Program-made: the position numbers and the translations under genes
Shown: positions 5,483-31,942 of the stretch, piece after piece
Position numbering within the stretch: position 1 is the first letter of the stretch
Layout of the letters: the number at the start of each line of letters is the position of its first letter
Notes under the pieces: model-generated
What the model saw: only the letters and a program-made list of their open reading frames with translations
What the model was told of the DNA's origin: nothing
The model's database searches: none
Assembly: GCA_013214205.1 (NCBI GenBank)
Contig: JABSPQ010000350.1
Coordinates: 1-32,586, forward strand
From: Flavobacteriales bacterium
GTDB taxonomy: Bacteria; Bacteroidota; Bacteroidia; DT-38
Length of the DNA stretch: 32,586 bases
Direction: 5' to 3'

Positions 5483-5490
5483 AAATAATT

Positions 5491-6589: not shown

Positions 6590-6598
6590 GGGATTACT

Positions 6599-7150: not shown

Positions 7151-7157
7151 AAGTTCA

Positions 7158-7606: not shown

Positions 7607-7620
7607 GTTAAAAAATATAG

Positions 7621-7646
7621 GCCTTTGAGCAATCAGAGGCTTTTTT
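7621..7646. terminator. Bidirectional rho-independent terminator after the XRE gene
   Basis: GCCTTTGA (7621-7628), loop GCAA, TCAGAGGC (7633-7640), with TTTTTT on the plus strand (7641-7646). On the minus strand the hairpin is followed by TATATTTTTT. It lies directly after the stop of the minus-strand regulator at 7649, so it can end that transcript as well as readthrough from the RHS cassette. Confidence 0.75.
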
Positions 7647-7648
7647 AT

Positions 7649-7987: not shown

Positions 7988-8034
7988 AAACTACCTTAAA
8001 GGGGGTTAAAACATACTGTTTTTTAGTAATGAGG

Positions 8035-8042
8035 CAAAAGTA
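8035..8042 (-). promoter_or_regulatory. Putative -7 box for the XRE gene
   Basis: On the minus strand this reads TACTTTTG, matching the Bacteroidota -7 consensus TAnnTTTG, 48 bp before the regulator's start codon. No clear TTG -33 element is seen at the usual distance. An AAGGTAGAT half-site (8053-8061) lies just upstream of it and another (7989-7997, reverse) lies by the start codon. Confidence 0.4.
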
Positions 8043-8076
8043 TGAATATTAAAAGGTAGATAAAAACATGAAAGGC

Positions 8077-8125
8077 TTGATTGGATGAACTGGAAAATAT
8101 ACCTTTGTACCTAATAAGGTGTATT
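8077..8125 (+). promoter_or_regulatory. Promoter and overlapping operator palindrome of module 2
   Basis: TTG at 8077-8079 and TACCTTTG at 8100-8107 fit the Bacteroidota -33/-7 pair with a 20-base spacer. The -7 box is covered by an inverted repeat: AATATACCTT (8096-8105) and AAGGTGTATT (8116-8125), ten-base arms with one mismatch, spacer ten. A regulator bound there would block initiation. The helicase ATG follows at 8140. Confidence 0.7.
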
Positions 8126-8139
8126 AAAATATTTTTCCA

Positions 8140-14797: not shown

Positions 14798-15718
14798 ATG
14801 GGTTGTCTAAAACTATCATATTACGAGCAAGAAAAGGATCTAGAAATAAATCCTAATTTTTTTGTGGGTACTCTAGAAAAGAATGACCACGCGGAAAAAA
14901 ATCGCGTGAGTTCCTCTAGGTATGGCTTTAATGGCATGGAGAAGGATGATGAGGTGAATAATGTGTCTGGTAGTAGTTATACAGCTGAGTTTTGGCAATA
15001 TGACGCTAGGCTGGGTAGAAGATGGAATATTGACCCTGTTGTGAAAATTCACGAATCTCCCTATGCTGCTTTTGCCGATAATCCAATTATATTTGCTGAT
15101 CCAAATGGGGATTCACCAGATAATGTTATAGTTAACGATGACGGGGTTGTTACTGATGTAGAAAGAAATGATGACCCAAATAAGTTCTTTGATGAAGATG
15201 GAACGGAGTTTAATTTTAATGATCCTGACAATTTGGATGAGATGTTATCGACGGATGACTTTAATAAAGGCGATCAGTTGTATTTTCCTGTGAGCAAAGA
15301 ACAGATTGGTAAAACAATAGCTAATGCAGGTATGGATCCTTTATTTGAGAAGGCCACTAGTAAATATTTTGACGCAGTATACTCCGTTGTTACGAAATCA
15401 CATGGCTCGGCAGATTTTGTTTTTAGTTTCCTTTCTACGGAATTCCCTATTAATCGTGCAGGAAGCGACAATGAAACCGTATTAAGAGCAGGGTTTTCTG
15501 AGAGCGCTGGGTATTTTAGATTTGGTGAAAGTAATACGGTATTTAATCTTTATGACGCGGGAAATTTCCTTTGGGGGACTTGGATGAAGTTAAATAACTA
15601 TTCAGACTTCACAGCGAAATATGGTGCACACTTAAATGAGATTTTACATGGTAACTTTAAAGGTGATTCAGATGCGGATCAAAGAGCAATTGGTCAAGGT
15701 TTACAACTTAAATTTTAA
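14798..15718 (+). CDS. Short RHS-core protein with polymorphic toxin tip, possibly Ntox44-like
   Basis: A 306-residue free-standing RHS tip. It starts MGCLKLSYYEQEK, a start often seen on short RHS cassettes of Bacteroidota, then carries the core end RYGFNGMEKDDE, WQYDARLGRRWNIDP and SPYAAFADNP (residues about 41-103). The variable tip spans about 105-306. Its last 70 residues (LYDAGNFLWGTWMK, GAHLNEILHGNF, SDADQRAIGQGL) resemble the Ntox44 class of predicted nucleases or peptidoglycan-directed toxins. This resemblance is recalled, not computed. No signal peptide or RHS repeats are present, so delivery would need recombination with a full-length RHS gene or another route. The membrane protein 12 bp downstream is the likely immunity factor. 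Confidence 0.75.
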   Translation: MGCLKLSYYEQEKDLEINPNFFVGTLEKNDHAEKNRVSSSRYGFNGMEKDDEVNNVSGSSYTAEFWQYDARLGRRWNIDPVVKIHESPYAAFADNPIIFADPNGDSPDNVIVNDDGVVTDVERNDDPNKFFDEDGTEFNFNDPDNLDEMLSTDDFNKGDQLYFPVSKEQIGKTIANAGMDPLFEKATSKYFDAVYSVVTKSHGSADFVFSFLSTEFPINRAGSDNETVLRAGFSESAGYFRFGESNTVFNLYDAGNFLWGTWMKLNNYSDFTAKYGAHLNEILHGNFKGDSDADQRAIGQGLQLKF

Positions 15719-17594: not shown

Positions 17595-17630
17595 AAAGGA
17601 GATAGCCTATTGGTTATCTCCTTTCTTTTT
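17595..17630 (+). terminator. Strong rho-independent terminator
   Basis: AAAGGAGATAGCC (17595-17607), loop TATT, GGTTATCTCCTTT (17612-17624), a 13-bp stem with one G-T pair, followed by CTTTTT. It ends the toxin/immunity transcript and shields the IS gene that starts 55 bp later. Confidence 0.85.
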
Positions 17631-17670
17631 AGGTCAAATACGGGCCTTAAACTCAACAAACAGGCTCCTT

Positions 17671-17694
17671 GTGTATCAGATTATATGATAGAAC
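17671..17694 (+). repeat. 24-bp direct repeat, right copy, at the transposase start
   Basis: It is identical to 17515-17538. Bases 17685-17687 are the likely start codon of the transposase, so the repeat straddles the gene start. Confidence 0.7.
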
Positions 17695-18365
17695 TTATGA
17701 AATGTAAATATTGTAGTGAAGTAAGTGTAAAGAATGGATTTATAAATTCTGTTCAGAGATACAGATGCACAGAATGTAGACGTGTGTTTCAAAAAGAATA
17801 CAAATACAAAGCTTATGAAGTAGTAGTAAATTCCAATGTTGTATCCTTTTTGAAAGAGGGGTGTGGAATACGAAGTATTGCTCGACTTTGTGGGATAAGT
17901 ACTACAACAGTAATGTGTAGAATACTTAAAATATCTAAGCACATTAATCGGCCTGTAATGGCCGTTGGTAAAGAATATGAACTAGACGAAATGTGCACAT
18001 TTATAGGAAATAAGTCGAACCGAGTGTGGATTGCCTATACCTTAAGAAAGGATACTAAAGAAGTAATGGATTTTAGAGTAGGAAAAAGAAGTAAGCGTAT
18101 GCTTAGACCGTTAACTGAAAGTTTGGTTCTTGCAATGTCGAAGAGAGTATCTACAGACAGACTGATTCATTACCAAGGCTTAATTCCCAAAGCAATACAT
18201 GACACAAAGAAGTTCGGAACAAATCACATTGAAAGAATGAACTTAACCCTAAGAACACATTTAAAGCGGCTGAACAGGAGAAGTATATGTTTCTCGAAGA
18301 GCTTAACAATGCTAAAAGCTTGTTTGAAAATTTACTTCTGGGATAATATCGTACAGTCAAAATAA
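17685..18365 (+). CDS. IS1-family transposase, single ORF
   Basis: From ATG 17685 the protein has 226 residues. Its N-terminus is an InsA-type zinc ribbon (C7, C10, C28, C31; MKCKYC and YRCTECRRVF), followed by an HTH (GCGIRSIARLCGISTTTVMCRI). The InsB-type DDE catalytic part has D101 (YELDEMCTF), D158 (VSTDRLIHY) and E183 (TNHIERMN), ending with the IS1-typical LTLRTHLKRLNRRSICFSKS. Unlike classical IS1 there is no frameshift between InsA and InsB. The frame is open further upstream to 17610, but that part lies in a terminator and is not transposase-like. All catalytic residues are present, so the enzyme may be active. I could not find a matching inverted repeat on the right side, where REP palindromes start three bases after the stop. 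Confidence 0.88.
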   Translation: MIELMKCKYCSEVSVKNGFINSVQRYRCTECRRVFQKEYKYKAYEVVVNSNVVSFLKEGCGIRSIARLCGISTTTVMCRILKISKHINRPVMAVGKEYELDEMCTFIGNKSNRVWIAYTLRKDTKEVMDFRVGKRSKRMLRPLTESLVLAMSKRVSTDRLIHYQGLIPKAIHDTKKFGTNHIERMNLTLRTHLKRLNRRSICFSKSLTMLKACLKIYFWDNIVQSK

Positions 18366-18367
18366 CT

Positions 18368-18468
18368 CATTTTGCTGTTTTTAGTCTTGTCATTCAGAGA
18401 GAAACGATGAAGGATAGACTGCAAACCAAAATCCAACGCAATGCTCGAATCCTGATGTGTTTGAGGCT
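18368..18468 (+). repeat. REP-like element A1
   Basis: Type A starts ATTTTGCTGTTTTTAGTCTTG and contains AGACTGCAAACCAAAATC. The two halves form an imperfect stem (ATTTTG/CAAAAT, GTTT/AAAC, AGTCT/AGACT). A1 is the most diverged inside the loop (ATAGACT and CATTCAGAG). Confidence 0.65.
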
Positions 18469-18490
18469 TACCGTTATGGTGAATCATATT

Positions 18491-18588
18491 GCTGCAATTG
18501 GTTTTCCGTCATCGTCGTGGCATATGTAGTTAGTGTATCTTTTGTGTTGACGATTAGACATTATTACAAAGTAATACCGAGCAATTGT
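18491..18588 (+). repeat. REP-like element B1
   Basis: Type B starts GCTGCAATTGGTTTTCCGTC and ends in GACGATTAGAC and GCAATTG. Pairing arms are CAATTG/CAATTG, CGTC/GAC and ATCGTC/GACGAT. B1 has the longer tail with a small hairpin, TATTAC/GTAATA type (ATTACAAAGTAAT). Confidence 0.65.
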
Positions 18589-18599
18589 AGACATTTCCC

Positions 18600-18696
18600 A
18601 TTTTGCTGTTTTTAGTCTTGGTTTCGTGCTTAAGCAAAGAAATTAGACTGCAAACCAAAATCGAACGACGTGCTTGAATCTTGATGTGATTGAGGC
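18600..18696 (+). repeat. REP-like element A2
   Basis: Full type A copy: ATTTTGCTG to TTGAGGCA, with the apical hairpin TTTCGTGC/GCAAAGAAA. It is 231 bp after A1 and nearly identical to A4. Confidence 0.7.
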
Positions 18697-18724
18697 ATAC
18701 GTTTCTCTAGCTGTGAATCATATT

Positions 18725-18808
18725 GTTGCAATTGGTTTTCCGTCATCGTCGTAACATGGTTGTAAGAGTATCTTTTATGTTGACGATTAGACGAAAAACA
18801 GCAATTGG
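18725..18808 (+). repeat. REP-like element B2
   Basis: Type B with the short tail: GACGATTAGACGAAAAACAG then CAATTG. It lies 180 bp upstream of the RAYT start. Confidence 0.7.
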
Positions 18809-18987
18809 AAGCAGAGAGGTTGTCGCAATCCCATTTTTCTCAGATAATTACCCTTTTAATTCGTAATATTGTTTCAACACAAATCCAATAACCTTCATCT
18901 CTCATCTCATGAAAATTACAGGCAAACCCTGCGACTCCATTCTTTTCGGAGAACTATATTTAGTATCAATCAATTTAAGTAGTCGGC

Positions 18988-19536
18988 ATGTCGGTAGGAG
19001 GATATAAAATACGAGACCAACAAGCCACGCATTTCTTAACCCTCACAGTAGTAGGCTGGGTCGACATTTTTACTAGGGCGTGTTACGCCGAAATAATTAC
19101 CGATAGCCTAAACTACTGTGTAGAAAACCGAGGACTTAAAATCTATTCGTGGTGCTTAATGTCTAATCACTTGCACATCATCTGTAGAAGTGAGAACGAG
19201 GATCTATCTGCTATTGTTAGAGACTTTAAGAAATCTACATCCCGACAAATTTTGTATGAAATTAAAAGCAATGTTCAAGAAAGTAGAAAAGATTGGATGC
19301 TGAGTGTCTTTGGCAAGGCCGGGGTAGATAATCCGAAAAATGTGAAATATCAGTTTTGGATAAACGGAAATCATCCGATTGAAATAGTGAGCAATAGATT
19401 TATAGATCAAAAGACAAACTACATCCATCAAAACCCTGTAAAAGCCGGATTGGTACAACAGCCAGAATATTATCGTTATTCGAGTGCCATAGATTTTACC
19501 GAAGAGGAGGGGTTGGTGAAATTGGAGCCGATGTAG
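18988..19536 (+). CDS. REP-associated tyrosine transposase (RAYT), Y1/HUH family
   Basis: A 182-residue single-strand DNA transposase of the IS200/IS605-like superfamily. The HUH metal motif is H61 and H63 (SNHLHIICRS), and the catalytic tyrosine is Y145 in the RAYT signature NYIHQNPVKAGLV. The body has the expected beta-alpha-beta layout (FLTLTVVGWVDIF at residues about 16-28). It differs from IS200 TnpA by the extended N- and C-termini typical of RAYTs. The start ATG is supported by the MSVGGYKIRDQQATHFLTLT opening, typical of the family. The gene lies alone between two sets of REP-like palindromes, which are its expected substrates: RAYTs cleave single-stranded REP DNA at the hairpin foot. 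Whether it is active in spreading them cannot be judged here. Confidence 0.92.
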   Translation: MSVGGYKIRDQQATHFLTLTVVGWVDIFTRACYAEIITDSLNYCVENRGLKIYSWCLMSNHLHIICRSENEDLSAIVRDFKKSTSRQILYEIKSNVQESRKDWMLSVFGKAGVDNPKNVKYQFWINGNHPIEIVSNRFIDQKTNYIHQNPVKAGLVQQPEYYRYSSAIDFTEEEGLVKLEPM

Positions 19537-20379: not shown

Positions 20380-20424
20380 ATGAATAAAGGAATAATGAAT
20401 AAAGGAATAATGAATAAAGGAATA
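20380..20424 (+). repeat. Three tandem 15-bp repeats carrying start codons
   Basis: ATGAATAAAGGAATA occurs three times in a row and is followed by a fourth ATG (20425). Each unit holds a start codon and an AAAGGA ribosome-binding-like box for the next start codon. All four ATGs are in the same frame as the pseudopilin. Confidence 0.9.
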
Positions 20425-20841
20425 ATGATTAAACGCATTGATTTAAACAAAAAACTTAAGGCATTTACTTTAACAGAACTGTTAGTTGTTTTAGTAATTG
20501 TAGGCATCTTGGTGCTATTGGCTTTGCCCAATTTAATGCCGCTAATTTCGAAAGCGAAAGCTACAGAAGCGCAATTACAATTGGAAGCTTTGTACAATGC
20601 TGAGAAAATGTACTTCTACACGCATTCTAAATATACCGACGATATTACTCAGTTAGATTTTGAGCAGGTAAAACTGACAACGGAGGATGGTACGGCCAAC
20701 TACTTGATGGATATCAAGGAGGCAACTGCTACAACTTTTGTAGCAACAGCTGAATCTGTAGTGGATTTCGACGGAGATGGCGAAATGAATCTATGGCAAA
20801 TGGATCAAGATAAGAAGTTAATAGAAGTTGTAAAAGACTAA
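20380..20841 (+). CDS. Major pseudopilin, GspG-like
   Basis: A 153-residue frame from the first of four in-phase ATGs; 138 residues from the fourth (20425), which is probably the main start because it gives a normal 13-residue leader (MIKRIDLNKKLKA). The class III prepilin signal is FTLTELLVVLVIVGILVLLA, with E5 present and Ala instead of Gly at -1. The hydrophobic helix is followed by a globular domain that starts KAKATEAQLQLEALYNAEKMYF, typical of major pseudopilins, and a DFDGDGEMN segment that could bind calcium as in GspG. It would be cleaved by the peptidase encoded next door, inserted in the inner membrane and polymerised into the pseudopilus. First gene of the operon. Confidence 0.88.
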   Translation: MNKGIMNKGIMNKGIMIKRIDLNKKLKAFTLTELLVVLVIVGILVLLALPNLMPLISKAKATEAQLQLEALYNAEKMYFYTHSKYTDDITQLDFEQVKLTTEDGTANYLMDIKEATATTFVATAESVVDFDGDGEMNLWQMDQDKKLIEVVKD

Positions 20842-20843
20842 AG

Positions 20844-21371
20844 TTGACACTCATTCTAATACCCATAGTTATGATATTACTGTCTCTTATAGCCTACCAA
20901 GATTTCAAAGACCGCTTGGTTTCCTGGTACTTGTTCCCACTACTTTTTGGGTTTTTAGCTTATAAAGGAATCCAGCATTTATTAGTAGTTGAGTTTTTGG
21001 AATATGCGGTGGTCAACCTTGCATTTCTGATCCTTCAATTTGCAATGGGCACCATTTATGTTTCCATTAAACAAAGGCAATTGGTAAACATTACCAAGCA
21101 ATGGATTGGCTGGGGCGATGTTTTATTTTTAGTAGCGCTTTGTGTTGCATTCTCTCCGCTAAACTTCTTTGTGTTTTACCTCGCCAGTTTAATCGGGGTA
21201 ATTGGCATTGCCTTAATTCAAAAAGTATTTACAAAAAACGAAGAGCCATTAATTCCTTTAGCTGGCATAATGGCTGTTTTTATGGTGATAATCCTAGGGT
21301 TAAACCTCACCGTTTTTCCAATCAATTTATTTGATGATTCGTATTTCGCAAACTTATTAATTGGAATGTAA
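20844..21371 (+). CDS. Minimal prepilin peptidase, A24 family
   Basis: A 175-residue polytopic membrane protein with about six hydrophobic segments. The two catalytic aspartates of A24 peptidases are visible: D20 (AYQDFKDRLVSW) and D92 in the GxGD motif (IGWGDVLF). It lacks the N-terminal cytoplasmic methyltransferase/zinc domain of PilD/GspO, so it resembles TadV/CpaA-type short peptidases. The start is TTG at 20844, two bases after the pseudopilin stop; ATG at 20871 is an alternative that removes nine residues. Its stop overlaps the ATPase start (TAATG). It should remove the leader peptides of the four pseudopilins in this operon, but without the usual N-methylation domain. Confidence 0.85.
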   Translation: MTLILIPIVMILLSLIAYQDFKDRLVSWYLFPLLFGFLAYKGIQHLLVVEFLEYAVVNLAFLILQFAMGTIYVSIKQRQLVNITKQWIGWGDVLFLVALCVAFSPLNFFVFYLASLIGVIGIALIQKVFTKNEEPLIPLAGIMAVFMVIILGLNLTVFPINLFDDSYFANLLIGM

Positions 21372-22810
21372 TGGAGCAATTAGATTACATATCACTCAAT
21401 GTAGATAAGCAAAATGTTATCACCACCAATCAGGCGTGGAACTACGGAATCATTCCTAAAAATGTAAGTGATAACGAGATTGGGTTTTATATCGATGAAG
21501 CTCAACTGTCGGATGCGTTGCACGCAGAGCTCGAAATTCTTTTTGGCAAAACGGTTTCATTAGAAAGTTCTCCTACAGAAATTATCAAGAAAACCCTTTC
21601 TAAATACTACCGAAAAAGTAAGAAAGAAGGCGTTCAAAAAATAGAATTAGATGCCAGTAAGGCCAAAGATTTATTGAGCAACTTGGTTGCCGAAGCAAAA
21701 AATATTGATAGCTCGGATATTCACATAGAAGCTTACGAGGAAAGATGTAGGGTGCGAATGCGAATTGATGGTTTATTGGTGGAACGATACACGATTAAAA
21801 AAGCTGATTATCCGGCTTTAATTAATAAGGTAAAAATCAAGGCCAACTTAGATATTTCTGAAAAGCGTTTGCCTCAAGATGGCAGGATATTTTTTACAGA
21901 TGGAGGGCAGAAGCTCGACATTCGGGTGTCTGTATTGCCAACGTTGCATGGCGAAAAAGTAGTACTCAGGCTTTTGAACAGCGACGCGGCAGAAATTGAT
22001 ATTGAGCAATTGGGTTTTGAATTGGATGATTTAAAAACCTATTTGGATGCCGTTAAACGTCCTAATGGTATTGTACTCATTAGTGGCCCTACAGGTTCTG
22101 GTAAAACCACCACTTTGTATGCTACCCTTAAAATATTGAATCAGGAGAAAACCAACATTCTTACCGTTGAAGATCCTATTGAATATACGCTGGAAGGCAT
22201 TAACCAAGTGCAATTAAAAGAAAGCATCGGGCTCACATTTGCCAGTGCGCTTAAATCATTTTTACGGCAAGATCCAGATGTAATAATGCTGGGCGAGATT
22301 AGAGATGGCGAAACCGCTCAAATGGCCGTTCGTGCTGCACTTACTGGGCATCTGGTGCTCTCCACCATTCACACCAACTCTGCCTGGGGCACCATTTCAA
22401 GATTGGCCGATATGGGCGTACCACCATTTTTAATAGCCAGCACTTTAAATACATCGGTAGCGCAAAGGCTAGTAAGGTTACTTTGTAAGGCATGTAAAAA
22501 GGCCGAAACATTCGACTCCCAAATGTATCCACGAAGTTATAAGCCTACCGAAACAGTAACCCAGCACATGGTAGCTGTAGGTTGCGACGAATGTTATTAT
22601 ACCGGATACAAAGGACGAAAAGCAATTTACGAAGTGATTCCAATCGACTTCGAATTAGCAAATGCAATAAAAGAAGAAAGGTTTGCACCGCCTAAAGAAA
22701 CAGAAAATGGTCCCATTAAATTTTTGGGAGCAAACGCATTCGATTTATTTAAAAGTGGTTCAACAAGTATAGAAGAAGTTTATCCATTGCTATTAAACAG
22801 TGGCGAATAG
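21371..22810 (+). CDS. Secretion/pilus assembly ATPase, GspE/PilB family
   Basis: A 479-residue hexameric motor protein. The N1E-like region covers residues 1-95. The ATPase core has Walker A GPTGSGKTTT (239-248), Asp box TVEDPIEY (265-272), Walker B VIMLGEIRD (304-312) and His box TGHLVLSTIHTN (325-336). A zinc-binding tetracysteine is present (C372, C375, C405, C408), as in GspE. It is shorter than E. coli or Vibrio GspE because the N-terminal GspL-binding region is reduced. It works on the cytoplasmic side of the inner membrane to drive pseudopilus polymerisation, together with the GspL-like and GspF proteins encoded downstream. There is no PilT-like retraction ATPase in the window, which favours secretion over twitching. 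Confidence 0.95.
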   Translation: MEQLDYISLNVDKQNVITTNQAWNYGIIPKNVSDNEIGFYIDEAQLSDALHAELEILFGKTVSLESSPTEIIKKTLSKYYRKSKKEGVQKIELDASKAKDLLSNLVAEAKNIDSSDIHIEAYEERCRVRMRIDGLLVERYTIKKADYPALINKVKIKANLDISEKRLPQDGRIFFTDGGQKLDIRVSVLPTLHGEKVVLRLLNSDAAEIDIEQLGFELDDLKTYLDAVKRPNGIVLISGPTGSGKTTTLYATLKILNQEKTNILTVEDPIEYTLEGINQVQLKESIGLTFASALKSFLRQDPDVIMLGEIRDGETAQMAVRAALTGHLVLSTIHTNSAWGTISRLADMGVPPFLIASTLNTSVAQRLVRLLCKACKKAETFDSQMYPRSYKPTETVTQHMVAVGCDECYYTGYKGRKAIYEVIPIDFELANAIKEERFAPPKETENGPIKFLGANAFDLFKSGSTSIEEVYPLLLNSGE

Positions 22811-22817
22811 AGAAATA

Positions 22818-24800
22818 ATGAAAGGAAAAACAATAAAAAGCATAGCATTGATTCTACTTTGTTTGGTAAGTCAAGTTCAATTTGCCGAGGCACAAGTTTC
22901 TGTACCAACAGAGAAAAAGACGGAACCGAAAAGAGATTTGTCAAAAGTTTCTGAAGAAGACTTTGTTGCAATGGAAAACAAAATGAAGGCGTTAATTCCT
23001 GAATTTAAAGGCTTAAAAGATAAAGTGGAATTGTCGGTAAACGATGTATCGCTCGAAGAATTTATTAGAAGTTTGGCGCTCACGAATTCATTAAACGTTA
23101 GTGTAGATAACTCCATGAAGTTTATCATCACCAACAATTTTTCTAACGTTACCGTGCTTGAGGTTTACATGTTTTTAGCCCGACAATATAATTTGGAGAT
23201 CTCTTTTGTTGGTTCCATCATGTCGTTTTCTAAATATGTTCCGCCAGCAATTGTTGTAGAACAAGTCCAAAAAAAGGAATTACTTGTTACTTACAAAAAG
23301 GCAGGTAACCTGGTTAACTTCGACTTAAATGAAGATTTACTTTCGGAAGTGGTAAGAAAACTCACGAAAGCATCTGGTAAAAACATTGCGATTTCATCCG
23401 ACTTAAATTCTAAAAAAGTGAACGGTTATGTTAAAGATATGCCGTTTGAAGATGCTCTGAATAACTTGGGCTATTCCAACGACTTGGTGGTGGAAAAGTC
23501 AGAAAATGGCACCTACGTTTTTGCCAAACATATTCCAGAAGTGGCCTCGTCTACAGGTAATAGAAATAGCAAAAGTAAAAATGGGCGGAGCGGAAACAAA
23601 AAGGGAAAGGCTGATTTTGTAATTGATGTTTTAACCAACGGGAATATAAACGTGGTGGCGGAGGAAACTCCAATTATAGATATTATTATGGCGGTATGCG
23701 AGGCAGCCGAAATCAAGTACTATCTCTATTCTAATCCAACATCCATACTTTCTTTAAATGTTAAAGATGTTGCCTTTGCCGACTTACTTTCCAGCATGCT
23801 TAAAGGAAGCGAGTTTACTTTTAAGATAGATTCAAAAGGCACTTTTTTAATTGGAGAAAGAAGTTACGAGGGGCTTCGACAGGTGAAGATCTTTGAGATG
23901 AAATTCAGAACGGCCCACGATATAGTTGAGTTTATTCCTAAAGAAATTACGAAGGATGTGACGGTTAATGTATTCGAAGAACAGAACAGTTTGATTCTTT
24001 CTGGTTCGCACATTGCAATTAACGAAGTAGAGAATTTCTTGTACAGCATAGATAAACCTGTACCAGTAATTTTAATAGAGGTAATAATTGTAGATGTGTC
24101 TCAATCGAAATCTTTGTCTACAGGAATCTCTGCTGGCTTAGGTGATAAACCTGGCACTACTACCGGAACGTTACTTCCAGAGTATGGGTTTGATTTGAAT
24201 GCGAACTCATTAAATTCTTTGATTTCAAACTTTAATGGATTTGGTTTGATTAAGCTAGGAAGCGTTACCCCCAACTTTTATTTAACATTAAAAGCAATGG
24301 AAGGGCAAGGGAAACTAAACTTGAGATCGACGCCCAAATTGGCCACACTAAATAGTCATGAAGCAACCATGAGTATTGGCAATACAGAGTATTATTTAGA
24401 AACCACAGTAACTAGCCAAGGGAGTTTGAATGTGTCTAACATGCAGGCAAATCGTTACAAAGCAGTTACTGCCGACTTGTCAATTAAGATAAAACCAACC
24501 GTTTCGGGCAACGAAATGGTAACAATGGAGATTGATGTTCAGCAATCAGATTTTACAGCGAGAATATCGCCGCAAGCACCTCCAGGAAAAGTAACACGAC
24601 AGTTTACATCTATGATTAGGGTAAAGAACGAAGAAATGATTGTATTGGGTGGTATTGAGGAAAGTTCAACCAGTGAGAGCAGTTCTGGATTACCCCTTTT
24701 ATCAAGAGTTCCAGTTATTAAATGGCTTTTTAGCTCTAGAATAAAAGAAAAGAAAAAGGGGAAAATGATCGTATTCATCAAGCCGACTATTTTGTATTAA
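22818..24800 (+). CDS. Secretin, GspD family
   Basis: From ATG 22818 the protein has 660 residues with a clear signal peptide (KGKTIKSIALILLCLVSQVQ, cut after AEA). A GTG at 22800 inside the ATPase gene is also in frame but would spoil the signal. The periplasmic part has several N-domain-like units (about 55-125, 180-245 and 270-350) separated by a Ser/Gly/Lys-rich linker (GNRNSKSKNGRSGNKKGK). The C-terminal secretin domain (about 410-660) has the usual VPVILIEVIIVDV, STPKLATLNSHEATM and IVLGGIEESSTSESSSGLPL then LSRVPVIKWLF motifs. It forms the multimeric outer-membrane channel. No pilotin gene is evident, although the lipoprotein at 26543 is a candidate. The stop TAA is followed by the next ATG (TAATG). 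Confidence 0.95.
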   Translation: MKGKTIKSIALILLCLVSQVQFAEAQVSVPTEKKTEPKRDLSKVSEEDFVAMENKMKALIPEFKGLKDKVELSVNDVSLEEFIRSLALTNSLNVSVDNSMKFIITNNFSNVTVLEVYMFLARQYNLEISFVGSIMSFSKYVPPAIVVEQVQKKELLVTYKKAGNLVNFDLNEDLLSEVVRKLTKASGKNIAISSDLNSKKVNGYVKDMPFEDALNNLGYSNDLVVEKSENGTYVFAKHIPEVASSTGNRNSKSKNGRSGNKKGKADFVIDVLTNGNINVVAEETPIIDIIMAVCEAAEIKYYLYSNPTSILSLNVKDVAFADLLSSMLKGSEFTFKIDSKGTFLIGERSYEGLRQVKIFEMKFRTAHDIVEFIPKEITKDVTVNVFEEQNSLILSGSHIAINEVENFLYSIDKPVPVILIEVIIVDVSQSKSLSTGISAGLGDKPGTTTGTLLPEYGFDLNANSLNSLISNFNGFGLIKLGSVTPNFYLTLKAMEGQGKLNLRSTPKLATLNSHEATMSIGNTEYYLETTVTSQGSLNVSNMQANRYKAVTADLSIKIKPTVSGNEMVTMEIDVQQSDFTARISPQAPPGKVTRQFTSMIRVKNEEMIVLGGIEESSTSESSSGLPLLSRVPVIKWLFSSRIKEKKKGKMIVFIKPTILY

Positions 24801-26008
24801 TGAATTTTAAATTCGACATACAAGATTTTTTAATTGGTACCACAGCTCTGGGAGTTGAGGTGAATTTACAAGGCGCCAATGCTGATTTTAAAGTAACTAC
24901 TTTAGAAAAAAAGGAAGGGAGTATTGATGTTGTCGGTTTTGAAAATTACAATTCTCAAGAAACGTTTTTTGAAAAACTCAATGTCGAAATGCCTATTTAT
25001 CTATCAATAGGAGGCAAGGGGATAATTAATAAAAAGGTGGCAGCAAAGGAAACGATCTCTGATGATGACCTAATTCAATTGGTATTACCCAATGCCAAAA
25101 TAGCTGACTTCTATCTTCAAAAGAAATCGTTGGGCAACAATCAATGGGTGGTGTCCATCATAAGGAAATCTGTTTTAGACGAAATTCTTCAAGAATTTAA
25201 GAGCCTAAAAGCCTATGTACTTAAAATAGTATTAGGGCCATTTTCTATAGTAAACGTTAGCGGCTTATTGGCGAATGACAATGCTACAATCAACGTTCCT
25301 GGCCATCAACTTCAATATAAAAAAGGGGAGTTGATAGCTCATAAAGCAAGCACCGAGGCCACCAATGGGTTAATTCAAATTGTTGATGATCAGGTAGATT
25401 TGAATCATTTGGTTTCTTTCTCCAACGCACTTTACCACTTCTCGCAACCAGATGATGATGGCGGTATTTCTATGGCAGAGAATCAAGATGAATTCAAGCA
25501 AAAGAAAATATTTAAAGTTGCTGGGTTCGGATTGCTAGGCATTTTTATGGTGAGTTTAATCGTTAATTTTTTGCTCTTCGAAAATTATAAAGCCACCTAC
25601 CAAGCATTACATACTCAGGTAGAAAGAGACAAAGGAAAGCTGGTAATGTTAGCGAGTTTAGAAACTCAGTTAGAACAGAAAAAGGGGTTTTTAGATGTCT
25701 CTGGAATTTTGGAAGCTTCTAAAACATCTTACTACAGTGATCAGTTGGCTAATTCTGTACCCAAAAGTATGAAGCTAACAGAAATGCACATTCATCCAAT
25801 TATTGGCAAAATAAAGAGGGCAGAGGTCATTCATTTTAATTCTAAATCCATTAGAGTTGAAGGAGAAAGTAAAAAAAGCACCGACTTCAACAATTGGGTT
25901 AAGGAGTTAGAAAAATTAGATTGGATCAAGGATTTAAAGATTTTAAACTATTCCCAAACAGGCGGAGGATCCACTGGCGAATTTGAATTAGAAATATTGT
26001 TGAATTAG
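24800..26008 (+). CDS. GspL/PilMN-like inner-membrane assembly protein
   Basis: A 402-residue protein with one membrane segment at about residues 238-260 (VAGFGLLGIFMVSLIVNFLL). The cytoplasmic 237 residues contain blocks that recall the actin-like GspL/PilM fold (EVNLQGANADFKVTTLEKKE; LAYVLKIVLGPF-like part), though phosphate-binding motifs are degenerate. The periplasmic part starts with a coiled coil (about 262-300) and ends in a ferredoxin-like PilN/GspL domain (EMHIHPIIGKIKRAEVIHF, then VKELEKLDWIKDLKILNY). It should link the ATPase to the periplasmic scaffold. The order E-D-L-M in this operon supports the assignment more than sequence identity does. Confidence 0.75.
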   Translation: MNFKFDIQDFLIGTTALGVEVNLQGANADFKVTTLEKKEGSIDVVGFENYNSQETFFEKLNVEMPIYLSIGGKGIINKKVAAKETISDDDLIQLVLPNAKIADFYLQKKSLGNNQWVVSIIRKSVLDEILQEFKSLKAYVLKIVLGPFSIVNVSGLLANDNATINVPGHQLQYKKGELIAHKASTEATNGLIQIVDDQVDLNHLVSFSNALYHFSQPDDDGGISMAENQDEFKQKKIFKVAGFGLLGIFMVSLIVNFLLFENYKATYQALHTQVERDKGKLVMLASLETQLEQKKGFLDVSGILEASKTSYYSDQLANSVPKSMKLTEMHIHPIIGKIKRAEVIHFNSKSIRVEGESKKSTDFNNWVKELEKLDWIKDLKILNYSQTGGGSTGEFELEILLN

Positions 26009-26009
26009 C

Positions 26010-26546
26010 ATGTTGAAGAATCTAACATATAAAAAGAAGAACATATTATTGGCTATAACTGCTGTCGCATTTACGTTTATTATGTACCTCGCTGCTATTT
26101 CTCACACTGTAGCTATTGCCGCTCAATGCGCAGAGCATGAAAAAGAGTTGGTGAAAATTAGTGGCGCGCCTGAAAAATTGATGGTGATAAAAGTTGAAAT
26201 GGCCAAAATTGACAAAGTTTTGGGCAATAAGAACCCTCTTGGAGAAAACTTGCAAAATAGGTTGTTGGAAGAAATAGTAACCTACTGCCAAAAAAAGAAA
26301 ATTGAACTGAGAGAGTTTCCAGAACCGCTTATTTACACCAAAGATGGCAATGTAATTGAAACCAGTATTGTTACTGTGGAGGCCGATTTTATTAAGATTT
26401 TAGGATTGGTATATGCGTTAGAACAATCTATAGACGCGGGTAAGGTAATCTCTGTTGATTATAAAGCGGTAAAGAATAAAAAGACAAGAAAAATGGAGTT
26501 GTTGGCCGACATCTTTATTCAAAATATTAAAAAGGAAGCATCATGA
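26010..26546 (+). CDS. GspM/PilO-like protein
   Basis: A 178-residue bitopic protein: cytoplasmic tail of about 10 residues (KNLTYKKKN), one membrane helix at about 12-33, then a coiled coil (about 38-70) and a small alpha/beta domain (TYCQKKKIELREFPEP, VEADFIKILGLVYALEQ). This is the layout of PilO and GspM. It starts two bases after the GspL-like stop and overlaps the lipoprotein gene by four bases (ATGA). It probably dimerises with the GspL-like protein to form the inner-membrane platform. The family call rests on topology and position. Confidence 0.75.
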   Translation: MLKNLTYKKKNILLAITAVAFTFIMYLAAISHTVAIAAQCAEHEKELVKISGAPEKLMVIKVEMAKIDKVLGNKNPLGENLQNRLLEEIVTYCQKKKIELREFPEPLIYTKDGNVIETSIVTVEADFIKILGLVYALEQSIDAGKVISVDYKAVKNKKTRKMELLADIFIQNIKKEAS

Positions 26547-27517
26547 GAAAAAGTGTGAATATTATATGTGTCGCAGTAGCTTTAATGACAGTGCTGTATA
26601 GTTGTTCAGATATCATTGAAAAAGACATCTCAGAAGAATCCGTATTTCTTAATGCCCCTGCAGAAGGATTGGAATTGGAAGACTTAACGCAAACTTATTG
26701 GTGGGATGAAGTTGCTGGGGCATCTTATTACAATCTTCAAATTGTGAGTCCATCATTTGCCAGTGCAGCTACTGTATTGCTAGATACAAATGTAACGAGT
26801 AACAAATTTACCTACACGTTAAGTTCTGGAGATTACCAGTGGAGAGTAAGAGCAGAAAACTCAACAAGCGAATCAAATTATACAACACATAATATCTCTT
26901 TTTCGGATGATATTGATTTAAATGCAGTTACAATCAATTTAACATCTCCCAACCCCGGTGAGTTAACCAACGATACTGTCATAGAGTTTGTTTGGGATGA
27001 AGTTGGAATTGCACATGCATATCGAATACAGATTCTTTATCCCAATGTTATAGATCCTACTTACGAGGAACTAGACACCTTGATTTACACGAATTCATAC
27101 ACGCATACTTTTGTAGCAGATGGAAGTTTTGAATGGCAAGTAATGGGGGTGGACACTGCAACTCAAATGAGATCACTTTATTCTTATGAAAGCATTACTG
27201 TTGATGCGACTATTCCAACTAAACCAAACAACGGTGAACCCGAAAGTGCAGATATGATTAAATTAGATTCTGCATTCACTTTCTCATGGGATCAAGGTAC
27301 TGATGCATTAAGCGGTATTATGGTAGATACTGTGTTTGTTTATAGCAACGCTTCATTAAAAACTCAGGTGGCTGCCTTGGTTGGAAATGAGAGTGCTGCA
27401 AGTCCCGATTGGGATAAAATGAGTGTAAATAACACCTATTGGTGGGTGGTACAATCTACCGATTATGCAGAGAACCAAAGTTCGTTTAGCGACACCACTA
27501 GCTTTATTGTGTATTAG
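26543..27517 (+). CDS. Lipoprotein with three FN3-like repeats
   Basis: A 324-residue lipoprotein: lipobox LYSC with modified C21, then three beta-sandwich repeats each with a W-D-x-V/Q motif and a closing W-x-V. The repeats start at about TYWWDEVAGASYYNLQI, EFVWDEVGIAHAYRIQI and TFSWDQGTDALSG, and close with YQWRVRAEN, FEWQVMGVD and YWWVVQSTD. This is the fibronectin type III-like layout common in Bacteroidota surface proteins. It has no counterpart among standard T2SS genes, yet it overlaps the GspM-like gene by ATGA and is followed by the GspC-like gene after three bases, so it is a true operon member. Possible roles: pilotin, secretin-stabilising protein or surface-exposed recruiter. None is proven. 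Confidence 0.85.
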   Translation: MRKSVNIICVAVALMTVLYSCSDIIEKDISEESVFLNAPAEGLELEDLTQTYWWDEVAGASYYNLQIVSPSFASAATVLLDTNVTSNKFTYTLSSGDYQWRVRAENSTSESNYTTHNISFSDDIDLNAVTINLTSPNPGELTNDTVIEFVWDEVGIAHAYRIQILYPNVIDPTYEELDTLIYTNSYTHTFVADGSFEWQVMGVDTATQMRSLYSYESITVDATIPTKPNNGEPESADMIKLDSAFTFSWDQGTDALSGIMVDTVFVYSNASLKTQVAALVGNESAASPDWDKMSVNNTYWWVVQSTDYAENQSSFSDTTSFIVY

Positions 27518-27520
27518 ATT

Positions 27521-27994
27521 TTGAAGAGCAAAAAGTTAATATATGTTTTGGTGCCCGCTGTAATATTTGTGTGGGGACTTATTATTATGCGAATTGTTTC
27601 GCCCGATACGGGAAGCGAATTTGTAATGACAGAGCAAAAGAATTATTCGATTGGAGATTTAGAAATTTCGGTTGATACATTCAATATTGTTGCTAAATAC
27701 CGCGATCCGTTTTTAGGCAGAATATATACAGAGCCAGCTAAAAAGAAGAAAGTTATTGTTGCAAAATCGAAACCAAAGCCGAAAGCGATTCCCGACAAAA
27801 AATGGCCTTCTATTAGTTATGGAGGAATGATAAAGAACAGTAAATCGGTTAAAGTAATAGCACTGGTAAACATCAATAAAAAAAGCAATTTGATGCAGCA
27901 AGGAGAAACGAAGTATGAAATTGAACTTTTGAAAATTTATAATGATTCCATAGAAGTGAAATTTTCAGGAGTAAAAAAATACATTAGGAAATAA
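27521..27994 (+). CDS. GspC/PilP-like protein
   Basis: A 157-residue bitopic protein: a membrane helix at about 7-24 (YVLVPAVIFVWGLIIM), a short linker that contains the DPFL motif typical of PilP and GspC-linked proteins (YRDPFLGRIY, about 60-69), a Lys/Pro-rich tether (KSKPKPKAIPDKK), then a small beta domain of about 60 residues (WPSISYGGMIKNSKSVKVIALV) like the GspC homology region. It has no PDZ domain. It should bridge the inner-membrane platform and the secretin. The start codon is TTG, three bases after the preceding stop. Confidence 0.8.
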   Translation: MKSKKLIYVLVPAVIFVWGLIIMRIVSPDTGSEFVMTEQKNYSIGDLEISVDTFNIVAKYRDPFLGRIYTEPAKKKKVIVAKSKPKPKAIPDKKWPSISYGGMIKNSKSVKVIALVNINKKSNLMQQGETKYEIELLKIYNDSIEVKFSGVKKYIRK

Positions 27995-28002
27995 TTAAGA
28001 CG

Positions 28003-28638
28003 ATGAAAATAATGATGAAAAAGACTTTCTTACTAATCGCAATGTTTACTGTTTTACTGATTCAAGTTAATGCACAGCGCGATATTTTTAAGGAGTACGA
28101 AACCACGGTTATCAGCATGAGCAACGATAGTTCGTATTTGCGTTTCTCCATTTACAACAGTAATCCCAAAATGAACCCAAAGAAAATATTGGCTTATGCT
28201 TGGTTTAAATCTAATAAAGTATTTGTTACCAAGGGTGGGTTTGATGGCAAATTACTTCATGGCAAATACACTTCCTTTTATAAATCAGATCAGATGATGG
28301 AGCAGGGGGAATATAAAAAAGGAGTAAAAAATGGTGAATGGATGCTTTGGAAACCCAATGGAAGTATAGATAAAGTAATTAACTGGAAAGGTGGAAAGTT
28401 AGATGGCACAACCTCTGTTTATAAAGGTGATAAAATACGGACGGAAAAAAATTACAATGGCGGAAAACTGGTAATAGAGAAAGATAAATCGAAAAATAAA
28501 AAATCTGTCGATTGGAAAAAGAAAGAAGATAAACCCGCAGAAATTGAGAAAACGAAAGAAAATTTCATCTCGGTTTGGATGATGAAACAGAAAGCAAAAA
28601 AGCGTTCCGACAAGGTAAAGAAACCTAAGAAAAAATAA
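28003..28638 (+). CDS. Secreted MORN-repeat protein with Lys-rich tail
   Basis: A 211-residue protein with a signal peptide (MMKKTFLLIAMFTVLLIQ, cut after NAQ). The middle, at about residues 75-155, has MORN_2-like repeats (GKLLHGKYTSFY, GEYKKGVKNGEWMLWKPNGS, GGKLDGTTSVYKGD). The last 60 residues are very Lys-rich (KKSVDWKKKEDKP; KQKAKKRSDKVKKPKKK). It is exported to the periplasm or beyond. It is not a standard T2SS component. Its place between the GspC-like and GspK-like genes (9-bp and 3-bp gaps) makes a role in the apparatus or in binding envelope polymers plausible. The start may be ATG 28003 or 28012. Confidence 0.8.
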   Translation: MKIMMKKTFLLIAMFTVLLIQVNAQRDIFKEYETTVISMSNDSSYLRFSIYNSNPKMNPKKILAYAWFKSNKVFVTKGGFDGKLLHGKYTSFYKSDQMMEQGEYKKGVKNGEWMLWKPNGSIDKVINWKGGKLDGTTSVYKGDKIRTEKNYNGGKLVIEKDKSKNKKSVDWKKKEDKPAEIEKTKENFISVWMMKQKAKKRSDKVKKPKKK

Positions 28639-28641
28639 TCC

Positions 28642-29889
28642 ATGTTGCGCGCCGGAGCTTTATTTTATGCAATTGTAATTTCCCTAATACTAGCTCTGGT
28701 AAGTAGTTCGTTAGTTATGTATGGCTATTTGAACCGCTATAGAAATTTACAATACGATTTAATTACGAGGCTCCACGATAATGCCAATTCAGGTATTCAA
28801 TTGCTCATGTCTGATCAAGATATTGTTGACAGAGACGATGAAAAGCAAATAGATTTGTTTGATTTAGGGAGAGACAGTGTGTTACTCAAAAGGAAATCGT
28901 GGGGAGTTTTTAAAGTAATTACTGCAACGGCAACAAGTAAAAATCAATTGGCATCTAAATCGGCTCTGATGGGTTATTCACTTAACGATAGATCTACTGC
29001 ACTTTATTTAGCCGACAACAACAAGCCGCTTTCAATATGTGGATCGGTAAAAATAGTTGGCACCGCCTATTTGCCCAAAGCAGGCACTAAGCGTGCCTAT
29101 ATAGAGGGTAAAACCTTTACCGGAAGGAGCTTGGTTGATGGAACTGTTTTAAGAAGCAAGAGGTCGGTACCTAGAATGAATAAAGAGGTTTTAAGAACGG
29201 TTACACAGTACATAAATGGTTCAATTAGTTTTGGCCGACCAATTACCATGGATGAATTAGGGCAGGACACCTTATCTCAATCTTTTGCCGATGAAACAAT
29301 TATATGGCAGGTTAGTGGAAGCATCAACCTTTCTGAAATTACCTTGATAGGAAACATAATGGTTATGTCGAGTACGTCAATTTTTGTTTCAAAAAGTACG
29401 AGGTTAAAGGACGTAATTATTGCGGCACCACTAATTGAAATAGAAGCAGGTTTTGCAGGAACGCTTCAAGCATTTTCCTCAGAAGAACTAATTGTAGGAG
29501 AGAATGTGGAATTGTTTTATCCAACAGTATTAGGGATGGTAGCCAATCAGTCGGTTATTGGTGGTAAGGCTCAACTAATAATAGAACAAGGCGCTCGTAT
29601 AAAAGGAGTTGTTTTTGCCGCATCGCAAAGCACACAAGTAGTTGCTGTTAAAGTTGAACGAGGAGCAAAAATTACAGGACAAGTGTATTCGCAAGATGGA
29701 ATGCAATTAAGGGGCGAAGTGATTGGCAGTGTGATCTGCGATAAGTTTATTTTAAAAACTGCATCGGCCTATTACGAAAATCATTTATTAGACGGTAGAA
29801 TTGATATTACCCAACTAGCTCCCCAGTTTGCCGGTATTGGTATGTTGGGCATTTCAGAAAACAAATCAATTGCCAAATGGGTGCATTAA
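28642..29889 (+). CDS. GspK-like minor pseudopilin with beta-solenoid domain
   Basis: A 415-residue protein whose first 30 residues (RAGALFYAIVISLILALVSS) match the N-terminal helix of GspK-type minor pseudopilins, which lack Glu5. Instead of the GspK Ca-binding domain, residues about 185-400 show repeating short beta strands with stacked V/I/G positions (GSINLSEITLIGNIMVM; IEIEAGFAGTLQAF; VERGAKITGQVYSQ; GEVIGSVICDKFILKT), which suggests a right-handed beta-helix or bactofilin-like solenoid. It would cap the pseudopilus tip or contact a substrate. The family call on the N-terminus is fair; the solenoid is inferred from the pattern. It lies two bases before the next pseudopilin gene. Confidence 0.7.
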   Translation: MLRAGALFYAIVISLILALVSSSLVMYGYLNRYRNLQYDLITRLHDNANSGIQLLMSDQDIVDRDDEKQIDLFDLGRDSVLLKRKSWGVFKVITATATSKNQLASKSALMGYSLNDRSTALYLADNNKPLSICGSVKIVGTAYLPKAGTKRAYIEGKTFTGRSLVDGTVLRSKRSVPRMNKEVLRTVTQYINGSISFGRPITMDELGQDTLSQSFADETIIWQVSGSINLSEITLIGNIMVMSSTSIFVSKSTRLKDVIIAAPLIEIEAGFAGTLQAFSSEELIVGENVELFYPTVLGMVANQSVIGGKAQLIIEQGARIKGVVFAASQSTQVVAVKVERGAKITGQVYSQDGMQLRGEVIGSVICDKFILKTASAYYENHLLDGRIDITQLAPQFAGIGMLGISENKSIAKWVH

Positions 29890-29890
29890 A

Positions 29891-30226
29891 ATGAAAATTA
29901 AAGCAGGAACCCTTATTGAAACTTTGATTGCCTTGGTAGTGGTAATGGTAGTTTTTAGTATTTCCATTATGATTTACCAAAACGTTACAGGAGGTTGTAG
30001 TTCTGCCCGACAGCTTACGGCAGATTTAATATTAAGCGATGAAATGATCAACACCATTAAAGGTGGTTCTTTCATTGATGAGGACATTCAAGTAAAGGAC
30101 CTAACGATTGTTAAATCTGTTGAAAAGTATGATAGAATAGAGGATTTATTGATGATTACACTTAAATGTATCGACAAAGATGGAAAGGAATTACTAACCA
30201 AACAGCAATTGTTTTTTAACAGATGA
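29891..30226 (+). CDS. Minor pseudopilin, GspI/H-like
   Basis: A 111-residue pseudopilin. The ATG at 29891 is chosen because it gives a five-residue leader (MKIKA) directly before the class III signal GTLIETLIALVVVMVVFSIS. A longer frame begins at 29828 inside the GspK-like gene but adds 21 residues with no pilin character. With Glu at +5 the cut falls after Ala5, so -1 is Ala and +1 is Gly, which is unusual. Gly at -1 is possible only with Glu at +4. The C-terminal domain is small (LTADLILSDEMINTIKGG). It overlaps the next gene by four bases (ATGA), so translation is coupled. Confidence 0.82.
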   Translation: MKIKAGTLIETLIALVVVMVVFSISIMIYQNVTGGCSSARQLTADLILSDEMINTIKGGSFIDEDIQVKDLTIVKSVEKYDRIEDLLMITLKCIDKDGKELLTKQQLFFNR

Positions 30227-30801
30227 TATCACAGTTAAACATTTTTAAGCGATTTTATCTCGATGTATATCGAGATCTTTCTTTACATAGGAAGTTACTT
30301 TGTCATCCGAAGCTTCAGCGTAGGATGAAATCCTTCACCCTAATAGAACTTATTGTAACCATGATCATCTCATCCATCGGCATCGGAATAATGGGCAGCG
30401 CCTACAGAATTGTGAATCATCAATATTCCTCTTATAAGAAGATGAATGAAGGTATTTCGCATATTAAGCAATTAAACGCGCTTTTGCACAAAGATTTCGA
30501 CAACGCCATGCAAGTAAATTGGCGCAATGGCACACTGGAAATAGTTAACGAGAAAGATGAAAAAGAGATCATCTATAAATTTAACCACAACACTATTACT
30601 CGATTGCAAGCAAATGTGAATGATGTTTTTGAAATAAAAATAATTGGAATTAAAGGTATGTTGATGGATCAACCGTTAACGGGGATAATAGACGAATTGC
30701 AAATAGAAGTATTGGTTAATGGAGCAAATCAGCATTTTCACTTTAAGAAACAATATGGTGCAGACGTAATGATGGCGATGAAAGAAGTATATGGCAATTG
30801 A
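30223..30801 (+). CDS. Minor pseudopilin, GspJ-like
   Basis: A 192-residue frame by the first ATG, which overlaps the previous stop (ATGA). The prepilin signal is at residues 35-60: MKS then FTLIELIVTMIISSIGIGIM, with E5 present and Ser at -1. If the ATG at 30325 is the real start the leader is a normal three residues (MKS). From 30223 it would be 37 residues, very long. The intervening DNA contains two hairpins of intergenic-repeat type, which favours 30325. The mature part (SYKKMNEGISHIKQLNALLHKDFDNAM, then strands) fits the GspJ class. It is predicted to join the tip complex of the pseudopilus with the GspI/H-like and GspK-like proteins. Confidence 0.78.
   Translation: MISQLNIFKRFYLDVYRDLSLHRKLLCHPKLQRRMKSFTLIELIVTMIISSIGIGIMGSAYRIVNHQYSSYKKMNEGISHIKQLNALLHKDFDNAMQVNWRNGTLEIVNEKDEKEIIYKFNHNTITRLQANVNDVFEIKIIGIKGMLMDQPLTGIIDELQIEVLVNGANQHFHFKKQYGADVMMAMKEVYGN
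30257..30334. repeat. Two small hairpins in the leader of the GspJ-like gene
   Basis: ATCTCGAT (30257-30264), GTAT, ATCGAGAT (30269-30276) is a perfect palindrome. TCATCC and GGATGA at the two ends of TCATCCGAAGCTTCAGCGTA flank a second one near 30304-30328. Both look like dispersed intergenic repeats of Bacteroidota. Confidence 0.5.
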
Positions 30802-31942
30802 TCTAAATAAAATACAAAGCGCTAAGGCCATCAAAAAAACGGCTGGAAAGACTTCGGAGGGAGGTTCTATGTTTGATTTATTAAACAAAGACATCAAGCT
30901 TTTTGGTAGCCAATTAAAAGATCAAACAAAGGAATCATTCTATTCCGAACTCACCACACTTTTCTCTGCTGGTGTAGATATTAAAACAGCGTTAGAACTG
31001 ATAGAAGAAGAGCAAGAAAAAGAAGTAGATCGAGTGCTGTTCAAAAAAATTAAAGACGATGTGGTAAGTGGAATCTCCTTATCAGCATCCATAGAGAATA
31101 CAGGTAAGTTTTCTCCATACGAATTTCATAGTTTAAGAATCGGGGAGGAGAGCGGTAAATTGAACTTTGTACTCACTGATTTATCCAAATTCTTCAGTCG
31201 TAAAATAAACCAACAACGTCAAATAGTTAGTGCTTTAACCTATCCGGCCATTGTGTTTTCAGTTGCTTTCGGTGCTGTGTTTTTTATGATGAACTTCATT
31301 GTTCCGATGTTTGCCGATGTGTTCAAACGCTTTGGTGGCGATTTGCCAGGCATTACCCAATTCATCATCGATCTATCGGATGGCATTGCCGACAACTGGT
31401 TTTACATGTTTTTAATCATAGCATCAAGTGGAGCATTTATCTATTCTCAAAGAAACGCCAATTGGTTTAGGAAATACTCATCAAGAATTGTTTTGAAAAT
31501 ACCTGTAGCAGGTGAGATAGTTAGAAAGATTTATCTAGCGAGGTTTTGTCATTCAATGAATTTGCTCATCAGTGCTCAAACTCCAATCATTAAAAGCTTA
31601 GAGATGATCAACAAAATGATTGGATTTTATCCATTAGAGGAATCATTAAAACAAATACAAAAAGATGTGCTGTCGGGTAAAGCATTAAGCGAAAGCTTAA
31701 TGAACTTTCCGATATATGGTAGGAAGTTTTGCTCGTTAATTAAAGTAGCGGAAGAAGTAAATCAAATGGACATGATGTTCGATAAGCTGGCAGATCAATA
31801 CACCAGCGAAGTAGAACATCAAACCAGTCTTATTAGTAGCCTTATAGAGCCCCTTATGATTGTTTTCTTAGGCGTAATGGTATCTGTAATACTAATAGCA
31901 ATGTACTTGCCGCTTTTCCAACTGAGTAGTTCTTTTCAGTAG
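30791..31942 (+). CDS. Inner-membrane platform protein, GspF/PilC family
   Basis: A 383-residue polytopic protein with two T2SF domains. The first, at about residues 45-165, has FYSELTTLFSAGVDIKTALE and GEESGKLNFVLTDLSKFF, followed by a membrane hairpin (about 150-180). The second, at about 245-360, has RFCHSMNLLISAQTPIIKSLE and VAEEVNQMDMMFDKLADQY, then a C-terminal membrane helix (about 350-375). The membrane helices and the repeated helix bundle are as in GspF. It overlaps the GspJ-like gene by 11 bases and is the last gene of the operon. It joins the ATPase and the pseudopilus base. The N-terminal 30 residues are extra compared with shorter homologues and could bind the ATPase. Confidence 0.95.
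   Translation: MAIDLNKIQSAKAIKKTAGKTSEGGSMFDLLNKDIKLFGSQLKDQTKESFYSELTTLFSAGVDIKTALELIEEEQEKEVDRVLFKKIKDDVVSGISLSASIENTGKFSPYEFHSLRIGEESGKLNFVLTDLSKFFSRKINQQRQIVSALTYPAIVFSVAFGAVFFMMNFIVPMFADVFKRFGGDLPGITQFIIDLSDGIADNWFYMFLIIASSGAFIYSQRNANWFRKYSSRIVLKIPVAGEIVRKIYLARFCHSMNLLISAQTPIIKSLEMINKMIGFYPLEESLKQIQKDVLSGKALSESLMNFPIYGRKFCSLIKVAEEVNQMDMMFDKLADQYTSEVEHQTSLISSLIEPLMIVFLGVMVSVILIAMYLPLFQLSSSFQ

Follow-up and report, generated by a model that had tools for sequence, protein, structure and literature searches.

Which enzyme cuts the pseudopilins of the type II-like secretion clusters of Bacteroidia, and what does it read in their leaders? We address this question from a stretch of 32,586 nucleotides of a Flavobacteriales bacterium (assembly GCA_013214205.1, contig JABSPQ010000350.1), here called the window, in which four pseudopilin genes share one cluster with the gene of a short A24 prepilin peptidase. 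The reading that we regard as probable is that a dedicated, methylase-free A24 enzyme processes these proteins by a leader code seated at positions -3 and -1, counted from a predicted place of cleavage. A class-wide change of the cleavage code at that predicted place is well supported by the comparison of leaders, and unmethylated pseudopilins are plausible because the methylase domain PF06750 is missing genome-wide. The genes concerned are (the slash marks the predicted cleavage):

20425 to 20841, open reading frame (ORF) open from the ATG at 20380, forward strand: gspG-like major pseudopilin, LNKKLKA/FTLTE, Ala at -1 and Leu at -3
20844 to 21371, forward strand: minimal A24 prepilin peptidase of 175 aa, TTG start, D20 and G89xGD92, without a methylase domain
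28642 to 29889, forward strand: GspK-like pseudopilin without Glu5, MLRA/GALFYA, Ala at -1 and Leu at -3
29891 to 30226, forward strand: GspI-like pseudopilin, MKIKA/GTLIE, Ala at -1 and Ile at -3
30223 to 30801, from the ATG at 30223 or an inner ATG at 30325, forward strand: GspJ-like pseudopilin, MKS/FTLIE, Ser at -1 and Met at -3

In all four window pseudopilins the residue at -1 is Ala or Ser (KLKA, MLRA, KIKA and MKS, with G, I and J aligned on Glu5). A sequence-only reading of this DNA had noticed these residues in the three clear pseudopilins, which our alignment bears out, and the GspK-like protein adds a fourth case, with Ala. That reading had also set them against a near-invariant Gly, and here it holds only in part: the residues are unusual when compared with other phyla, but Ala-ending bacterial leaders already belong to the accepted definition. 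A 2014 review described the leader as invariably Gly-ending except in archaea (PMC4471445), whereas a 2011 paper already stated glycine or alanine (PMC3244431) and a 2023 review gives Gly or Ala (PMC10191384; this and the other papers are cited from those portions of them that were available). The window G and I proteins agree with the class III signal peptide definition, a leader with a Gly or Ala end, then a hydrophobic helix and often Glu5. The GspJ-like protein has Glu5 and the helix, but its Ser at -1 falls outside the Gly/Ala wording of the available text (PMC10191384).

GspE was detected in 68 of 396 class Bacteroidia genomes (in 155 of 392 genomes of the phylum when more distant ATPases were included), and 80 genomic stretches, largely conserved in gene order, were collected for comparison. 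Our main set holds 200 class pseudopilins from 69 loci, with -1 read by alignment and the GspK of L047 and L062 left out as mis-started ORFs. Position -1 is Ala in 135, Ser in 18 and Gly in 47 of them, and no other residue occurs; Ala or Ser is thus present in 153 of 200 records of the class and in 4 of 154 from other phyla. This outgroup comprises the other-phyla loci (52) among the matches listed in a scan of named genomes, and includes one likely non-pilin with Pro at -1. When 14 further loci were read by hand from the sequences and one duplicate was removed, the extended set of 236 pseudopilins from 82 loci had 154 Ala, 60 Gly and 22 Ser (the table is without L164, duplicate of L101, G088, and L090, from the same genome as L246). 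A scan anchored on Glu5 and blind to -1 returned, with the middle filter, Ala 97, Gly 30, Ser 14 and others 2 in the class (n = 143), Gly 149, Ala 4 and Pro 1 in other phyla (n = 154), and Gly 8 and Leu 1 in sister classes (n = 9), where the Leu comes from a mis-set frame. The survey of homologous operons that the earlier reading had called for therefore finds Ala or Ser in the majority of the class, but Gly in some of its loci. Order-level searches gave a match in 1 of 2, 5 of 21, 12 of 33 and 5 of 7 genomes, with few new clusters, most being already in the set; in G418, the other genome examined from the same order as the window, GspE of this kind was not found. As a separate observation, the major pseudopilins of L052, L055-L058, L061 and L240, several of them in family f85, have Asp, Gln or Ser in place of Glu5.

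The stronger mark of the class lies at -3, which is aliphatic (Leu, Ile, Val or Met) in 190 of the 200 class records as against 6 of 154 from other phyla, where Gln and Glu are commonest, and 0 of 9 from sister classes. It is found in every pseudopilin type (G 65/67, K 44/45, I 44/45, J 37/43) and whichever residue stands at -1 (Ala 130/135, Ser 16/18, Gly 44/47). It spans 22 families, none of which shows more than two exceptions, and is also seen in named Persicobacter and Flavobacterium loci. Fisher p-values for the difference between the class and other phyla at this position are tiny, the sequences compared being related by descent. The first residue of the mature protein differs as well in one type: +1 is non-hydrophobic (Ser, Asn, Thr, Gln or similar) in 34 of 45 GspI-like proteins of the class, and hydrophobic in all 152 outgroup pseudopilins.

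The choice at -1 is coordinated within loci. Agreement on Gly or not Gly among the pseudopilins of a locus was 0.845, compared with 0.603 after shuffling (sd 0.023), and none of 5000 shuffles reached as high. After correction for the GspE tree, -1 remained correlated between G and I (r = 0.52), G and J (r = 0.60) and I and J (r = 0.58). The simplest cause of this co-variation would be a common reader of the leaders, namely the peptidase. We also observed that in part of family f90 (L244, L245 and L246 with L089, L092 and L090) gspG, the peptidase gene, K, the minor pseudopilin genes and gspF lie apart from gspE and gspD, and that all leaders read in these split loci have Gly at -1.

The window peptidase is, as the earlier reading had described it, a short A24 enzyme without the N-terminal methylation domain: it has 175 aa and no PF06750, begins at the first transmembrane helix, carries the catalytic pair D20 (YQDFKDR) and D92 (GWGD), and scores 26.7 bits against Pfam A24 PF01478 (cut-off 26.5). 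The form of the bifunctional PilD, with an N-terminal PF06750/IPR010627 domain and four Cys, is absent from it. A profile built in this analysis detected the minimal peptidase in 68 of 74 class stretches; in three of the six others its gene belongs to a second block, together with gspG, K and F, and in L064, L095 and L112 it was not found within the stretch collected. Among the 80 class peptidases (145 to 203 aa), D20 is present in all 79 sequences that reach the site, one starting too late to show it, and D92 (GxGD) in 80 of 80, in agreement with the A24 signature of two catalytic Asp, the second within GxGD, in a polytopic membrane protein. The motifs around these residues, in contrast, depart from the canonical bacterial A24 form: IP[DN] is replaced by [IV]-x-W or other residues (26-28), GDxKL by GD[VIL][LV]F, with no Lys at the KL place in any of the 80, and PFGP by PLAG. 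An AlphaFold2 model of the window enzyme (pLDDT 90.7) has as its closest solved fold the methylase-free archaeal FlaK, 3s0x (Foldseek probability 0.69, E 1.3; profile E 2.8e-8), and a VIA comparison with the same structure gave Z 7.3 and 3.8 Å over 128 residues, the next row having Z 3.8.

We propose that this A24 aspartic protease, reduced to its peptidase domain, is dedicated to the G, K, I and J pseudopilins and would cut them on the cytoplasmic face of the inner membrane. The leader form that it may read is [KR]-aliphatic(-3)-[KR/P]-[Ala/Ser/Gly](-1): its S1 site would be wider, accepting Ala, Ser or Gly, and the enzyme would recognise the aliphatic residue at -3. The substrates of canonical PilD enzymes, by contrast, present Gly at -1, and their -3 residue is polar or acidic. 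Since no methylase domain was found in the genome, the new N-termini probably remain free amines. The suggestion of an altered peptidase specificity, made before from the window alone, is thus supported by comparison and is broader than claimed, as it takes in -3 as well as -1, although the interpretation built on it stands only in part. A bolder version would have Bacteroidia possess a separate prepilin-processing system, its active-site motifs remade together with substrates that carry an aliphatic -3 and a small -1, and its pseudopili wholly unmethylated; we think this possible, at somewhat less than an even chance.

Several observations weigh against the proposed code. The sequences are related, and the aliphatic -3 is best explained by one change in the founder of the class, an inheritance common to its members that counts as a single evolutionary event and not as many. 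The -1 residue of GspK fails to follow that of G after correction for the GspE tree (r -0.02) and tracks I and J weakly (r 0.26, p 0.075), and Ala and Gly are mixed in some class loci. W28 and A25, among other peptidase residues, are associated with Gly use in the raw data, but no residue remained tied to -1 after tree correction and Bonferroni adjustment (best p 0.0013, 756 tests); residues 25, 26 and 28, directly after D20, are among the five best in the corrected test. Lastly, the match to FlaK is modest for a helical protein, as the Foldseek E and the VIA Z indicate.

Could the leaders reflect ordinary tolerance? Each of Ala, Ser and Gly is a small residue, and promiscuous peptidases might have let the class drift without any change in substrate reading. 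The mixed loci would fit this explanation, as would the accepted Gly-or-Ala definition (PMC10191384) and the streptococcal Com pilins, which have Ala throughout. We nevertheless consider it unlikely, since -3 stays aliphatic while -1 varies, since the -1 residues of G, I and J co-vary after tree correction, and since motifs adjacent to the active site are altered class-wide.

We regard as more doubtful still that other enzymes cut, and perhaps methylate, the pseudopilins, either a PilD that escaped assembly or an N-methyltransferase of an unrelated kind. The assembly, 97.35% complete, is in 464 contigs, and an unknown methyltransferase could escape PF06750 searches. A full-length PilD elsewhere, the finding that the earlier reading had named as contrary to its own view, was sought in the window genome and in 73 cluster-bearing class genomes and was not found. 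In the window genome PF01478 matches once, at the window peptidase, with no second A24 protein found; PF06750 does not exceed its cut-off of 23, its sole match scoring 14.6 bits and holding an internal stop; and PF07963 matches two genes, both within the window. PF06750 exceeds its cut-off in 0 of the 73 genomes, with sub-threshold matches in six (E 0.0007 to 0.009). PF01478 matches in 41 of them at E 0.01, 15 over the cut-off, at one place per genome; G606, with two matches, is the exception, and it carries two clusters. That no cluster has more than a single A24 match argues against a second enzyme, as does the fact that the peptidase gene accompanies gspG even where both leave gspE (L244, L246).

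The earlier reading also implied that a short, methylase-free peptidase and Ala or Ser at -1 belong together, and this tie is unsupported, as both Ala with a methylase and Gly without one occur. In Streptococcus pneumoniae, cleavage of ComGC follows an Ala and the protein is methylated (PMC3694846); in S. sanguinis all five ComG leaders end in Ala (PMC7212644), and its ComC holds both peptidase and methylase domains (PMC10790768). Conversely, methylase-free peptidases of 207 and 203 aa lie beside the Gly leaders EEG and DDG in L183 and L198, and the sister-class L121 and L124 have peptidases (214-215 aa) that lack the Cys motif and keep IPN and GDxKL, with the leaders EEDG and DESG. Within the class itself, L106, L107, L244 and L246, among others, have a minimal peptidase yet Gly at -1. 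On these grounds we rejected the rule that a short peptidase means Ala, and although methylase loss and the -1 change are both present throughout class Bacteroidia, the same cases make it very improbable that the first caused the second.

Among known systems, the streptococcal Com pilus resembles this one in that all pilins of one system can end in Ala, as ComGC to ComGG do. It differs in that ComC retains its methylase domain and ComGC is methylated, in a monoderm DNA-uptake pilus. ComGG lacks Glu5, like the window K-like protein. The Com leaders also have Val or Ile at -3. FlaK/PibD and TadV are, like the window enzyme, A24 peptidases without a methylase domain, but they serve archaella, archaeal pili and Tad pili, and not a system like the type II secretion system (T2SS) with a secretin and PilN-like parts; methylase-free peptidases are also reported from type IVc pili (PMC10191384). 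The putative T2SS of Cytophaga hutchinsonii (CHU_3191-3202, PMC5553014) is a cluster of the same type, with G, an A24 peptidase (CHU_3197), E, D, F and divergent minor pseudopilins, and its mutants are impaired on cellulose; the available text of that account does not discuss leader code, peptidase length or methylation. The 'T2SS' of Bacteroidetes has been found to branch with type IVa pili and apart from T2SS, its major pilin being very divergent, and may derive from type IV pili independently of the classical T2SS (PMC6668835); leader and peptidase analyses are absent from the portions seen, and prepilin peptidases were excluded from that study's further analyses. Our literature search, over such portions, found no analysis of Bacteroidetes or Bacteroidota pseudopilin leaders or peptidases; a paper on Riemerella transformation proved irrelevant to the question. 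Neither Ala at -1 nor an A24 enzyme without a methylase domain is new by itself. What appears to be undescribed, within the literature searched, is their combination, the code at -3, the use of Ser at -1 and the range across the whole class.

What pilin N-methylation is for is still called a mystery more than 40 years on, and substrate processing by the prepilin peptidase family is described as poorly understood (PMC10191384). A class-wide T2SS-like system apparently without N-methylation would offer a natural test of the first, and the -3/-1 code a concrete substrate rule for the second. Pseudopilins whose leader ends in Ser, or that lack Glu5, may escape prediction rules based on Gly or Ala at -1, a point relevant to the report of some Bacteroidetes in which no minor pseudopilins were found (PMC5553014).

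The whole cluster (20380-31942, forward strand) is tightly packed and, by Pfam and NCBIfam searches and gene order, is the Bacteroidia form of a type II-like secretion system, with a predicted function in export. Its remaining genes are:

21371 to 22810, forward strand: GspE/PilB-type assembly ATPase (profile matches)
22800 to 24800, forward strand: secretin, GspD-like (profile matches)
24800 to 26008, forward strand: GspL/PilN-like inner membrane protein (PF05137)
26010 to 26546, forward strand: GspM/PilO-like protein (position, size and conserved place; no Pfam support)
26543 to 27517, forward strand: lipoprotein-like protein within the operon (sequence reading)
27521 to 27994, forward strand: GspC/PilP-like protein (position; no Pfam or NCBIfam match)
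between the GspC-like and GspK-like genes, forward strand: MORN-like protein (sequence reading)
30791 to 31942, forward strand: GspF-like platform protein (gene order)

A T2SS gene set (secretin, GspE ATPase, GspF, major and minor pseudopilins and prepilin peptidase) is thus present in one cluster. Three of its proteins score well below the NCBIfam equivalog cut-offs for T2SS (GspE 476 bits against 630, GspD 159 against 351, GspG 43 against 89), which agrees with the suggested origin from type IV pili independent of the classical T2SS. Directly before the likely gspG start, a 15-base unit, ATGAATAAAGGAATA, stands in three in-frame copies (20380-20427) and gives alternative starts. The region before the cluster is crowded with genes that look like tyrosine recombinases and transposases (3672-11683 and 17610-19536), and, by sequence reading, fragments of RHS-type cores lie there as well (5594-6589 and 14798-15718). 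A plasmid search with GspG matched four records, from Bacteroidota only. On a Flavobacterium jumunjinense plasmid (L248) an RHS-type core fragment (6287-7264) lies inside the secretion cluster. In Persicobacter sp. JZB09 the secretion cluster occurs on plasmids of 110 kb (L247, CP012864.1) and 40 kb (L249, CP012857.1); both copies encode a minimal peptidase of their own (157 and 165 aa) and have leaders with an aliphatic -3.

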